DNA from: Thermophilibacter immobilis
GTDB taxonomy: Bacteria; Actinomycetota; Coriobacteriia; Coriobacteriales; Atopobiaceae
Length of the DNA: 64,000 nucleotides
Direction: 5' to 3'
Assembly: GCF_015277515.1 (NCBI RefSeq)
Contig: NZ_CP063767.1
Location: 558,001 to 622,000 of the forward strand
The notes beneath the pieces are model-generated. The model saw only the letters and a list, made by a program, of their open reading frames with translations, was not told the origin of the DNA and did not search any database. The position numbers and the translations under genes were made by a program. Every line of letters starts with the position of its first letter. Positions within the stretch are counted from its first letter, which is position 1. Of this stretch, positions 1-25,431 are shown piece by piece.

Positions 1-2007
1 GTGGGCGACCCCGTGGCGAGCCTTCCGATCTTCTCGGACGATCTGAAGACGGGCAGCGTCACCTTTACCAAGCTGGGTGACGGTGGCCAGCCGCTCGCCG
101 GTGCCGAGTTCACCCTGTGCGACACCGACGGCAATCCCGTCGAAGGCTTCGAGCCTCAGACGAGCGATGCGGATGGCAGGGTCACGTTTGCTGACGTGCC
201 CTATGGCGACTACCAGATCGTGGAGACCAAGGCGCCTGCTGGCTACGCGTCGCTCACGATCAGCGTCTCGCTCCACGACTCGAACGACGCGATCGTGTCC
301 GAGGGCACCACGCACGCGCTTGACCTGGGCGACCAGACGGATAGCGCTCAGGGTAGCCTGACCCTGACCAAGTACTCCGCTGAGTACGAGGGCGGCTCCA
401 CGGCCGTGATGTCTGACATAGAGTTCCAGGTACTTGATTTTGCGGGCAACGTCATGGACGCGCAGACGACCAACGCCGACGGAACAGCCACCTTTTCTGA
501 CCTCCCCCTGGGTAGCTACACGCTTCACGAGGTGTCAACGCCCGCAGACTATCAGACCTTTGCTGACGTCCCCTTTACGATCTCCGCCGAGCAAAGCGCG
601 GCGGAGCGCCAGGTTTTCCTTGCCGTCACGAACGTCAAGGAGTCGGGGACCATCCGGCTCACCAAGGTCAGCGCCAAGGATGACGCGCCGCTTGGGGGCG
701 CCACGTTCATGCTCTACGACGCCACGGGCACCAACGTCATCTCCAACGCGTCGGGCCCCCTGACGGCGATCTCCGACGCCTCCGGCATGGTCGAGCTGAG
801 TGACGTCCCCTACGGCGACTACGTCCTGCGTGAGACGACGCCCGCCTCCAACCACGAGGTCTGTGACGACATCGCCATCTCCCTTCGTGATGACAACGAT
901 GCAATCATCGAGGGCACGCTTGACCTGGGGAGCGTCATCGACGAGCCCTCCACCGGAACCGTGAGCTTTGTCAAGACCGACGGGGCCACGCCGCTCCGGG
1001 GCGCCGAGTTCTCCCTGGCCCGTGCCGACGGCGGCTTCATCGCGACGGCCACGTCTGACGCGGACGGCGTCGTGACGTTCGAGGGCGTTCCCTACTCGGA
1101 CTCCGCGTACACCCTCCGCGAGACAAAGACCCCCAACGACGACGTCTACTTCAAGGTCGACGACGTGACCTTCACGCTCAACGACAAAAACGCCGACGTG
1201 GTCACAGACGGCCAGACGCACGTCTTGACGCTCGCTGACCAGGTCGACGCTCCGTTTGGCAGCATCACCCTCCTCAAGACCGACGAGACGGGTACGGCAC
1301 CGCTCTCGGGCGCCACGTTCCAGCTCCTTGACGCCTCAGGACAGGTGGTCGCAACGGCGACGACCGGTGAGAACGGCATCACCTCGTTCTCCGAGCTACC
1401 GCTGAGTGCCACGGGTGAGACCACCTACACGCTCCATGAGACGTTCGCACCGGGAGACTATGCCCTGGCAGATGACGTCATCGTGACTCTTTCCAACTCC
1501 GATGCCGCCGGCGCGCGCGACGCCTCCGTCACCATCGCGGACGTGCTTAAGGTGGGCTCCATAACCCTCACCAAGGTCGACGCGGTCACGGGAGCCCCGC
1601 TCGCGGGCGCGACGTTCACCCTCTACGACCTCGATGGCAGCCTCGTCCTCGGCGCTAATGGCCTGCCGATCTCGGCGACCACCGGCACTGACGGAACCCT
1701 CACGATCCCCGACGTCACCTATGGTGACTACGAGCTTAGGGAGACGACGGTTCCCGAGGGCTACCAGGCGGCCGATCCGCTGGCCATCTCGCTGCACGAC
1801 GACAACGACCGTGTGTCTGACGGCGTGCTCTCGCTCGGCAAGGTGGCGGATGCTCCCGTCTCTGCTACTACCACCACCACTACCGTTAAGCCCAAGCTTC
1901 CTGGCACCGGCGACGCGAGCTTCACCGGCATGGGCGGCCTTCTCCTGGCCGCCGTGGCCTCACTCGGCGCGGCTAGCGCCATGCGTCGCTCGCACGGTAG
2001 AAAGTAA
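1..2007 (+). CDS. LPXTG-anchored surface protein with six CnaB (SpaA-like) domains, 5' partial
   Basis: C-terminal part of a cell-wall-anchored adhesin or pilin-like protein. The reading frame is open from base 1, so the true start, signal peptide and probably further repeats lie upstream. Six CnaB-type beta-sandwich repeats of about 95-100 residues can be counted, beginning near residues 19, 120, 217, 318, 418 and 518; each opens with a G-S/T-(V/I/L)-x-(F/L)-x-K strand and continues to a G-A-x-F segment and a Y-x-L-x-E-T/x strand. A Thr-rich linker leads to the sortase motif LPGTG at residues 633-637, a hydrophobic segment (about 642-661) and a short RRSHGRK tail, the classic sorting signal. 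CnaB domains often carry internal Lys-Asn isopeptide bonds; I have not assigned the residues. No sortase gene is visible next to it. A strong terminator follows the stop codon. Confidence 0.9.
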   Translation: MGDPVASLPIFSDDLKTGSVTFTKLGDGGQPLAGAEFTLCDTDGNPVEGFEPQTSDADGRVTFADVPYGDYQIVETKAPAGYASLTISVSLHDSNDAIVSEGTTHALDLGDQTDSAQGSLTLTKYSAEYEGGSTAVMSDIEFQVLDFAGNVMDAQTTNADGTATFSDLPLGSYTLHEVSTPADYQTFADVPFTISAEQSAAERQVFLAVTNVKESGTIRLTKVSAKDDAPLGGATFMLYDATGTNVISNASGPLTAISDASGMVELSDVPYGDYVLRETTPASNHEVCDDIAISLRDDNDAIIEGTLDLGSVIDEPSTGTVSFVKTDGATPLRGAEFSLARADGGFIATATSDADGVVTFEGVPYSDSAYTLRETKTPNDDVYFKVDDVTFTLNDKNADVVTDGQTHVLTLADQVDAPFGSITLLKTDETGTAPLSGATFQLLDASGQVVATATTGENGITSFSELPLSATGETTYTLHETFAPGDYALADDVIVTLSNSDAAGARDASVTIADVLKVGSITLTKVDAVTGAPLAGATFTLYDLDGSLVLGANGLPISATTGTDGTLTIPDVTYGDYELRETTVPEGYQAADPLAISLHDDNDRVSDGVLSLGKVADAPVSATTTTTTVKPKLPGTGDASFTGMGGLLLAAVASLGAASAMRRSHGRK

Positions 2008-2090: not shown

Positions 2091-2219
2091 GGGACTTGTC
2101 AATAGATTTGCGCGGAAAGGTCGACTAGCTCGGTCTTTCTTGGCAAAGAACTACCAGGTAGAAGGCTCGTCGTTTTGTCGGCTACTTGAGGGTATCACGC
2201 AAATCTATTGACAAGTCCC
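2091..2219 (-). repeat. 129-bp inverted-repeat-bounded element, copy A
   Basis: Bounded by perfect 19-bp inverted repeats, GGGACTTGTCAATAGATTT and its complement. Two more copies of exactly the same length lie at 10430 and 25303. Read on the minus strand, AAGTAG falls at element positions 33-38 as in the other two copies, and CGAGCCTT at element positions 51-58 matches copy B without gaps; the rest of the interior differs. No target duplication is evident. It lies between a terminator and the phosphate transporter promoter region. Confidence 0.8.
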
Positions 2220-9442: not shown

Positions 9443-10408
9443 ATGGGGCTTTTCATTGGTAACGAATCGGCAGTGCGCTACTGGCTTACTAAGACGGGGG
9501 ACGAGTGCGTTCCCGAAGTGGCGCCCGATCTGAGTCTCGCTCAGGCTGAGATAAACAGTGGACTCATCAAATCCCAGACGCTCTCCTTTGAGCACACAAA
9601 GGCTGACCCCCTCCATCTGCTCGTGGCCGAAAGAGGACTCTGCCGCGCGCTTAGCGGAGCTACGGCGCACGTATGGAGCGGGCCCGTGCCTCCCGGATCT
9701 TTCTATCTTCTGAGTGGTTCGACAAGAATTGCCTCCCCGGAGCTCACGTTTCTTCTGATGGCGGGACACCTTGAACTCAAGGAGATCATCGAGTTGGGAT
9801 GCTATCTCTGCGGGGCCTTTTCGATCGATGACAAGGGGTACGGATACACCGGCAAGCGGCAGCCTCTGACGACTCCCGAGGTCATCGGTGCCTTCTTGGA
9901 CAAGGTTCCGCACGCCTATGGGATGGCGCGGGCGCGGCGAGCCCTCAGGTACGTGGTGGCCAACACGGCCTCACCCATGGAGGTGCTCCTTGGCATGGAG
10001 TACGCGCTTCCCGTGAAGATGGGTGGATGGGCCCTGCCGCACATAGTGGCGAACCAGAGAATCGATGTGAGGCCTGAGCTGCGTCGCCTCGCTGGTGCCA
10101 GCTACTTTGTCGGGGATATTTTCATACCGGGCATTATGAGCAATTCAGAGTATGACAGTGCGGAGTTCCACACGGGAAAGTACCGCCTCGATCATACGCA
10201 GACGCGCAGGAACGTTCTTGAGGCCATGGAGGTGAAAACTGTCTCTGCAACATATAACCAGATTAGGACCGCCGACATATTTGATGATTACATGTGGATG
10301 GTGGAGGAGCGCTTTGACCTTTCCCATCGCGAGTTCACGCTCGAGCAGAAGATGGTTCAGCACGATTTGCACGACTTTCTCATTGCGCACACGAGAAAGC
10401 GGTTTTGA
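9443..10408 (+). CDS. Orphan protein with a C-terminal DUF559/PD-(D/E)XK-like segment
   Basis: A 321-residue soluble protein that I do not recognise by name. The N-terminal half (to about residue 130) has a pattern like AbiEi-type proteins, with a short helical domain and a GCYLCG stretch. Around residues 230-265 the segment SEYDSAEFHTGKYRLDHTQTRRN has the E-x-D...H...R spacing seen in DUF559/Vsr-like nuclease-fold proteins, followed by a V-x-T/S-x-T-x-x-Q strand. Similar proteins form large families in Coriobacteriia as I recall them, of unknown function. The base composition is less GC-rich than its neighbours, it is preceded by an AT-rich region and it is followed 21 bp later by a 129-bp palindromic element; all this suggests transfer. 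No partner toxin or methylase is adjacent. Confidence 0.7.
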   Translation: MGLFIGNESAVRYWLTKTGDECVPEVAPDLSLAQAEINSGLIKSQTLSFEHTKADPLHLLVAERGLCRALSGATAHVWSGPVPPGSFYLLSGSTRIASPELTFLLMAGHLELKEIIELGCYLCGAFSIDDKGYGYTGKRQPLTTPEVIGAFLDKVPHAYGMARARRALRYVVANTASPMEVLLGMEYALPVKMGGWALPHIVANQRIDVRPELRRLAGASYFVGDIFIPGIMSNSEYDSAEFHTGKYRLDHTQTRRNVLEAMEVKTVSATYNQIRTADIFDDYMWMVEERFDLSHREFTLEQKMVQHDLHDFLIAHTRKRF

Positions 10409-10429: not shown

Positions 10430-10558
10430 GGGACTTGTCAATAGATTTTGGAGAAGAGGCCAAGTAGCAGCTCTTCGAGCGAGCCTTTGACCAGTGCTTT
10501 TCCGAAGGGATGGTGCCGTGATACTCGGGAGGTCATCGGAAATCTATTGACAAGTCCC
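10430..10558 (+). repeat. 129-bp inverted-repeat-bounded element, copy B
   Basis: Same 19-bp perfect inverted ends and same 129-bp length as the copies at 2091 and 25303. In this orientation AAGTAG is at element positions 33-38 and CGAGCCTT at 51-58. It starts 21 bp after the stop of the orphan nuclease-fold gene. Confidence 0.8.
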
Positions 10559-25302: not shown

Positions 25303-25431
25303 GGGACTTGTCAATAGATTTTCTCGAACAGGTTGAGTAGTAGAAATTTCCGCAAGCTCTCTAGCTGGTCCTTTGTCACTCGCAAGACGCTCACTACTTG
25401 GCCTGCTCGCAGAAATCTATTGACAAGTCCC
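25303..25431 (-). repeat. 129-bp inverted-repeat-bounded element, copy C
   Basis: Perfect 19-bp inverted ends as in the copies at 2091 and 10430, and the same length. On the minus strand AGGCCAAGTAG at element positions 28-38 is identical to copy B. The interior can extend the terminal stem (CGAGCAGG with CCTGTTCG and AGTAG with CTACT). It lies between the deacetylase gene and the convergent ABC exporter operon. Confidence 0.8.

Follow-up and report, generated by a model that had tools for sequence, protein, structure and literature searches.

Fixed-length intergenic palindromes of Thermophilibacter immobilis and a candidate partner, a predicted AbiEi-Vsr fusion nuclease

Introduction

MITEs, ERIC and Correia-type repeats are short intergenic palindromes of about 100–150 bp, which are dispersed and have no coding capacity. 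In Tn7, the PD-(D/E)XK nuclease TnsA is used at the element ends. With regard to REPIN-RAYT systems, the REPIN spacer is reported to be constrained mainly in length (PMC3116915), and E. coli genomes without a RAYT are reported to keep REPINs, though fewer (PMC8049555). AbiEi is reported to bind inverted repeats (PMC7319586).

Here, we analyzed a window of T. immobilis DNA, that is, the whole stretch of 64,000 nucleotides, together with its genome (G000, closed, 2,163,714 bp) and the genomes of relatives. In searches of the open-licence literature, none of the titles and opening abstract lines listed described the palindromes reported below or their pairing with an enzyme, and a term search in PMC3733652 and PMC12306157 gave no mention of the genera or families sought.

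Results

Three family 1 palindromes in the window

Three palindromes of 129 bp were assigned to family 1 by the covariance model R1: element A (2091..2219, minus strand, 113 bits), element B (10430..10558, plus strand, 114 bits) and element C (25303..25431, plus strand, 109 bits). An earlier note on this DNA had given exactly these three intervals. It had also described perfect 19-bp inverted ends, which is right for B and C, whereas those of A extend to 22 bp. AAGTAG does lie at element positions 33-38 in all three, and CGAGCCTT is common to A (reversed) and B (forward) at 51-58, as had been noticed. The boxes were located at 2182-2187 and 2123-2128 in A, at 10462-10467 and 10521-10526 in B, whose core spans 10480-10495, and at 25335-25340 and 25394-25399 in C. 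The orientation first given to C was, however, reversed: the asymmetric core places A on the minus strand but B and C on the plus strand, an error that escaped attention because the mirrored boxes hid the true orientation.

The end sequence of A, B and C, at up to three mismatches, has six matches in the window, with a maximum of 0 in 100 shuffles. Element B follows the putative nuclease gene described below, 22 bp past its stop codon. The ORFs flanking element C converge. In G002, the matching site lacks an element; the gene on one side of it is 90% identical and that on the other 78%. The ORF preceding element A (window 1-2007) ends in an LPGTG-type wall anchor, indicative of a surface protein.

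The region of element C is perhaps a recurrent insertion spot. In or beside the matching intergenic region of three relatives (L123 in G020, L126 in G010 and L127 in G016) there are RAYT-like Y1_Tnp genes; in L123 and L127, they are accompanied by GGGAC-type palindromes. Close to the same site, L130 (G011) and L131 (G021) hold GAGGGTATGTACAC palindromes with a GCGCAGGTAGATAAG-type core, a class that also adjoins the paralogues L376 and L391.

Family 1 in the whole genome

Genome-wide, the end sequence has 30 matches at up to three mismatches (16 forward, 14 reverse), all of which fall in 16 copies of 127-129 bp or in a 58-bp short form. Thirteen of these well-matched copies are 129 bp long, two 128 bp and one 127 bp, and R1 adds three more diverged copies (129, 129 and 125 bp), giving 19 palindromes plus the short form. 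The search for inverted end pairs that the earlier note had suggested returned near-constant lengths (127–129 bp) and one 58-bp form. Further, a full-length copy with a transposase and the same ends, which it had envisaged, was absent from the 30 matches, all of them short elements.

In the 13 copies of 129 bp, the interiors are 39-60% identical (median 48%) when oriented alike, compared to 24-42% in opposite orientation, and are therefore homologous but far drifted. An alignment of 16 copies displayed the ends, a core near CAAGCCTCTGACCTGC and mirrored GAGTAG/CTACTC boxes, in agreement with the mirror-image GAGTAG-like box reported earlier. As judged by sequence, length, box spacing and ends are constrained, while the remainder drifts. 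The earlier argument against plain copying, which was built on equal length, constant ends and divergent interiors, was upheld. The flanks of the copies showed partial extension of the palindrome, and no target duplication was evident by eye. No excision product was seen.

The 58-bp short form (own genome 2075614; L096 11615-11672) consists of the left arm and one box fused to an inverted end, as if the remainder had been deleted.

A rigid framework with variable ends among relatives

Following the earlier suggestion of a covariance model and a search of related genomes, R1 detected relatives in 56 of the 140 genomes of the family and in nine of its 35 genera. Across species, a framework made up of a GAGTA box, an asymmetric TCTACCTGCGG core and a TACTC box is rigid while the ends vary; some end classes are common to several species, and that of T. 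immobilis is nearly confined to its own genome, with one match elsewhere among 30 congeners (up to two mismatches). Box positions were recorded in 123 distinct elements: 52 have a left box that starts 31 nt from the element start, 60 have the right box 31 nt from the element end, and 85 have a core-to-right-box distance of 35 nt.

A strict framework pattern was found in 32 of the 297 genomes of the order, in two families only, with 0 matches for the reversed control. When one genome per prokaryote species was scanned with the framework, at least 120 stretches matched. Among the 80 matches listed, 75 were from Coriobacteriales (Olsenella, Thermophilibacter, Tractidigestivibacter, Collinsella, Enorma, Atopobium and uncultured relatives), three from 'Jeddahella massiliensis', one from Acidobacteriaceae and one from a Cyanobacteria MAG.

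Close copies at separate places in Tractidigestivibacter and Collinsella argue that copies are spreading still. The Coriobacteriaceae stretches L239 (G268) and L226 (G162) show signs of recent amplification, with elements at distances of 165-270 bp and with several close copies. A different arrangement was observed in some classes, in L063 (G004), L066 (G012) and L210 (G030), where the inner box runs on into an inverted copy of the end and each arm forms a hairpin, which suggests template switching within the palindrome.

Shared sites with homologous interiors and different ends

A flank comparison of 127 elements revealed many element sites common to several species. At one of them (G008_L206, G011_L201 and G021_L198), the interiors align clearly and the right ends match their left counterparts, which are TTGTGTGTGG, TTGTAGGCAG and TTGTGTGCAG, respectively. 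These ends were compared with other elements of the same genomes: all five elements fetched from G011 are of the TTGTAGGCAG class, and in G021 TTGTGTG is present at both ends of six of seven elements and at one end of the seventh. For G008, one of two other elements agrees in end class and the gene-adjacent one disagrees. At a shared site, the interior can remain homologous while both ends differ, following the end class of the species. At five shared sites, the orientation was opposite between some species, e.g., in G003_L185 vs. G028_L177.

This comparison indicates that ends tend to change jointly across a genome and that interiors descend by site, a combination that simple copying leaves unexplained.

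The candidate partner gene

One recurrent neighbor in the flank matches of the elements is the gene at 9443..10408 (plus strand), the 321-aa product of which is proposed as the candidate trans-acting partner of family 1. The protein has a predicted AbiEi-like N-terminal half (residues 1-172) and a predicted Vsr-type nuclease domain (residues 175-294, approximately). It gave no match at E ≤ 10 in Pfam, NCBIfam, PHROGs or PADLOC, and PF04480 (DUF559) was above cut-off in one paralogue, L382, but not in the protein itself. Homologues were present in 22 of the 23 genomes tested, 19 of which hold 5-16 copies. A close subgroup, with 46-52% identity to the gene of the window, comprises 14 loci in 10 genomes, the own genome included. 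G160, S177, P178, E180, P190, G194, G195, N204, D225, E236 and H243 were invariant in 25 sequences.

The structure model of the 321-aa protein (pLDDT 90.7, pTM 0.90) retrieved nothing at E ≤ 0.001 with Foldseek. In the realignment, among the structures listed, residues 175-294 matched the I-Bth0305I catalytic domain with Z 8.9 (96 aligned residues, 2.8 Å), 3hrl with Z 8.2 and Vsr with Z 7.3 and 7.0, and residues 1-172 matched the AbiEi antitoxin with Z 7.3 (120 aligned residues, 3.8 Å). The second paralogue of the own genome yielded Z values of 10.2 (I-Bth0305I), 9.4 (3hrl), 8.8 (Vsr) and 5.4 (AbiEi). These fold scores are moderate; on the nuclease part, a Toxoplasma mitochondrial ribosome protein scored Z 7.4, level with Vsr, and over the two query proteins Toxoplasma and Tetrahymena mitochondrial ribosome proteins scored Z 5.8-9.2 against the nuclease domain. 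The C-terminal part combines a predicted Vsr/DUF559-like PD-(D/E)XK fold (Z 7-10) with a conserved acidic motif (D225, E236, H243), and a sequence-recognizing half joined to a putative nuclease half would be the natural reading of the model.

Palindromes adjoin most members of the nuclease family

Adjacency was assessed in a model-free way, employing palindromes with a stem of at least 13 and 60-230 bp within 350 bp of the gene, and ORF calls as neighboring genes. Such a palindrome was found beside 41 of 50 gene loci. Among control genes, the count was 20 of 77 (7 of 45 within the window alone), some of the controls coming from stretches chosen for their elements, a bias that runs against the contrast. 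Without two duplicates, the values were 39 of 48 vs. 20 of 77 (Fisher p 1.4e-9), with the caveat that loci of related genomes are not independent observations. All 14 genes of the close subgroup had a downstream palindrome, which began 8-48 nt past the stop codon, and 25 of the 34 distant paralogues had an adjacent one (p 5.6e-6). Nine of the 50 loci had no adjacent palindrome, and as 26% of the control genes (20/77) also carry one, adjacency alone is not unique.

R1 was applied to 29 of 30 gene loci, L386 being omitted, and gave a match at E ≤ 1 in 15. Elements at E < 1e-4 or better were present on both sides in seven of the 29 (L366, L367, L368, L369, L370, L372 and L387), and L394 had two weak flanking matches. 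Of the members of this putative nuclease family that were examined in Coriobacteriales, most adjoin a long palindrome. The ends of these palindromes differ from gene to gene, and distant paralogues have other palindromes. We regard the gene–palindrome pairing as strong.

Dispersed ends follow the gene-adjacent class

In G000 (ACTTGTCAATAG), G011 (TTGTAGGCAG) and G021 (TTGTGTGCAG), the gene-adjacent ends equal those of most dispersed copies in the same genome. G118 has two close genes with ACGGTTGGTGGCAG and TCGACATTGACGG ends, G003 two with TTTTAGGCAG and GGTTGGGTAC ends, and both classes are dispersed in each case. We then compared 45 dispersed elements from eight genomes, leaving out eight gene-adjacent copies. 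Their end cores agreed with that of the own-genome gene in 8.40 of 10 positions vs. 6.11 for genes of other genomes, where the automatic end parsing is crude for the TTTTAGGCAG class and the gene-flanking G018_L089 is counted as dispersed; the own-genome sum was reached in 0 of 20,000 label permutations. For 34 of the 45 elements, no gene of another genome gives a better match than their own. The 11 exceptions, which match the gene of another genome better, are both elements of G008, both of G018, one of G003, one of G028 and five of the 18 of G000, the latter mostly of a GCAG subclass closer to the gene of G008. Dispersed copies mostly carry the end sequence of the gene-adjacent copy of their own genome. 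Protein identity and end similarity correlated over 91 gene pairs (Spearman 0.33), with 24 of 5,000 permutations as high.

The second own paralogue (near 1826542) has CGACCATACCCGAACGC palindromes on both sides, and this end was predicted to recur in the same genome. It has 25 matches there at up to two mismatches, which form about eleven 65-bp palindromes (ends 94%, interiors 48% alike), and 0-3 matches in each congener. One of the 25, at 509071 (CCATCATACCCGAACGC), recurs once in most congeners; it resembles the family 2 end and probably belongs to a conserved gene, perhaps an rRNA.

A survey for palindrome families covered 864 kb of the own genome, made up of the window and 40 stretches of 20 kb, some of which were selected because of known copies and paralogues. 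It revealed eight families with at least two sites each, and in six of these a copy adjoins one of the seven putative nuclease genes of the surveyed sequence. The reverse prediction, from palindromes to gene, was also borne out: the gene at 745282-746496, the seventh paralogue, was discovered through the matching palindrome pair at 745111 and 746599 that flanks it. One of the seven paralogues (1253070) has no adjacent palindrome, the paralogue at 982629-983297 is truncated, and two 2-site families with stems of 12-14 bp have no nuclease gene alongside.

Several genomes hold elements and no close-subgroup gene, namely G002 (17 distinct R1 matches) and G120, G090 and G126 (22, 14 and 9 R1 matches, both strands counted). 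The one further paralogue examined in each (L380, L381, L383 and L379) has no palindrome of its genome's element class. These genomes have therefore lost the close gene, or else a different protein acts as the partner; the E. coli genomes that keep REPINs without a RAYT are a precedent for orphan populations such as that of G002.

An autonomous element between two G002 copies (L046 and L135) was considered and rejected, as the enclosed DUF262-like gene sits in a direct duplication and is not the partner. At L088 2069-4305 (G002:C10), a DUF262-like gene for a 574-aa protein, beside a pyruvate kinase-like gene, is enclosed by a pair of nearly identical elements that have about 80 bp of flank in common, a direct duplication around a possible defense gene.

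Discussion

We lean towards the view that the putative nuclease encoded at 9443-10408 has a palindrome as its cognate DNA, of which A, B and C are non-autonomous copies at dispersed sites. In such a scheme, the AbiEi-like half, probably dimeric and with a fixed spacing, would bind the pair of inverted ends, and the Vsr-like half would nick or cut at the ends or at an extruded hairpin. Repair from another copy would occasionally seed a new site and would more often rewrite the ends only. Such end-rewriting would lead to ends that are uniform in each genome and change together with the enzyme, to a fixed length and to free interiors; movement and end-rewriting by conversion are both what we infer.

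More tentatively, and at slightly less than even chances, these would be parts of an undescribed genome-resident system of Coriobacteriales. It would consist of multi-paralogue AbiEi-Vsr fusion nucleases, each with its own fixed-length palindrome class, in which the enzyme spreads copies and rewrites old ends, so that ends evolve in concert while interiors drift.

Among the options of the earlier note, a protein-binding or mobile palindrome is the best fit. A palindrome bound by a protein could also belong to a host regulon, in which a domesticated AbiEi-like DNA-binding protein uses sites near gene ends (transcript ends, nucleoid) that are selected by the host and neither moved nor converted. 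Conserved ends in each drifted copy, copies at the same site across species and the modeled resemblance of the N-terminal half to AbiEi are in line with this possibility. We nevertheless judge it unlikely, since in seven loci the gene itself has palindromes both before and after it, the copy number and presence of the palindromes vary (the site of C being empty in G002), recent-looking close copies exist in Tractidigestivibacter and Collinsella, and the acidic nuclease residues are conserved. An old, decayed MITE family of a known transposase class, its ends kept by chance or recent activity, is improbable. It would account for dispersed, intergenic, palindromic elements of 129 bp with short ends; no transposase-sized copy is found among the 30 own-genome end matches, however, the interior boxes and their spacing are conserved over nine genera while ends differ, and the interiors are too divergent for ends so constant. 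The old MITE with a DDE transposase that the earlier note had allowed for leaves the nuclease gene, the species-specific ends and the fixed inner boxes unexplained. For a REPIN population moved by a Y1 (HUH) RAYT transposase, the chances are slimmest of all, although REPINs likewise have conserved inverted ends, a length-constrained spacer and a linked enzyme, as reported in PMC3116915. Y1 genes do occur in 28 of the 31 genomes of the genus, but Y1_Tnp (PF01797) is absent from the own genome even at E ≤ 10, for which a RAYT/Y1 transposase was rejected as the partner, and from G002 and G013, which have 24 and 11 R1 matches, at E ≤ 0.001. Of the 10 Y1 loci checked, one, IS200-like in appearance, had an element nearby.

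Two further explanations have very little probability, to a similar degree. That the elements are small RNAs or 3' ends of a structured RNA family with a conserved loop could be argued from the rigid spacing, the conserved TCTACCTGCGG core, a small CACC....GGTG hairpin in some subfamilies and a few column pairs above expectation. In the 16-copy alignment, by contrast, RNAalifold supported pairing of the ends only, with three pairs showing double-sided changes; left and right ends agreed above shuffled partners at columns 12, 13 and 16, and interior columns 23, 34, 39 and 45 were nominally above shuffles, most others being at shuffle level. Mutual information in 129 copies was weak and partly due to subfamilies, and elements occur in either orientation at shared sites. 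No Rfam family reached its gathering score, the sub-threshold matches being NsiR1 (E 0.17) and, on a long palindrome, MIR1861 (E 0.004, 30.8 bits vs. 88 needed), and the structured RNA listed in the earlier note is not supported by these results. An invertible switch, with the ends as recombination sites, an option of the earlier note, and a flipping interior, would agree with opposite same-site orientations at five sites across species (e.g., G003 vs. G028), yet the elements might have inserted separately or recombined on rare occasions, and C lies between converging ORFs, where a flipping promoter lacks obvious use.

Should the nuclease–palindrome reading be right, the RAYT-REPIN way of life would have arisen a second time from an unrelated nuclease, and general rules on enzymes with populations of tiny non-coding passengers would become testable. 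It would offer an answer to how dozens of repeats keep near-identical ends and a near-exact length amid interior drift. The nuclease family would supply many natural enzyme/target pairs with a framework in common, as material for deriving rules of recognition, and a gene family with up to 16 copies per genome, the tested core members of which have no Pfam or NCBIfam match, would be given a name.

With regard to known systems, the elements share shortness, intergenic dispersal and a non-coding palindrome form with MITEs, ERIC and Correia-type repeats. They differ from these in the linked nuclease gene with matching palindromes, the species-specific ends and the fixed spacing, and no transposase-sized copy was found in the own genome. 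The C-terminal part of the protein resembles the PD-(D/E)XK enzymes I-Bth0305I and Vsr in predicted fold (Z 8.9 and 7.3; 10.2 and 8.8 for the second paralogue), but it is fused to an AbiEi-like half, the palindromes paired with it lie outside the gene, and no intron or intein was seen. TnsA of Tn7 is a weak fold match (Z 4.7, and 6.7 for the second paralogue). The N-terminal half is similar in predicted fold to the AbiEi antitoxin of type IV toxin-antitoxin systems (Z 7.3 and 5.4), which, unlike this protein, has no putative nuclease domain attached.

The closest likeness is to REPIN-RAYT, which, as described in PMC3116915 and PMC8049555, also has an enzyme gene beside its palindromes, one palindrome class per enzyme and long persistence, together with dispersed extragenic copies, conserved inverted ends and a length-constrained spacer. 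In T. immobilis, dispersed extragenic elements with an inverted pair of conserved ends and a fixed-length spacer were found, as well as palindromes of matching class beside the enzyme gene, with exceptions and with a different enzyme. This enzyme is a predicted AbiEi-like/Vsr-like nuclease and not an HUH/Y1 protein, for which the genome has no gene; inner boxes and an asymmetric core are conserved across genera, and the copy number is about 10-25 in the two large families of the own genome. By analogy, we read the locus as a putative nuclease to which a population of non-autonomous palindromes belongs, a pair that would work like RAYT and REPINs with an unrelated enzyme.
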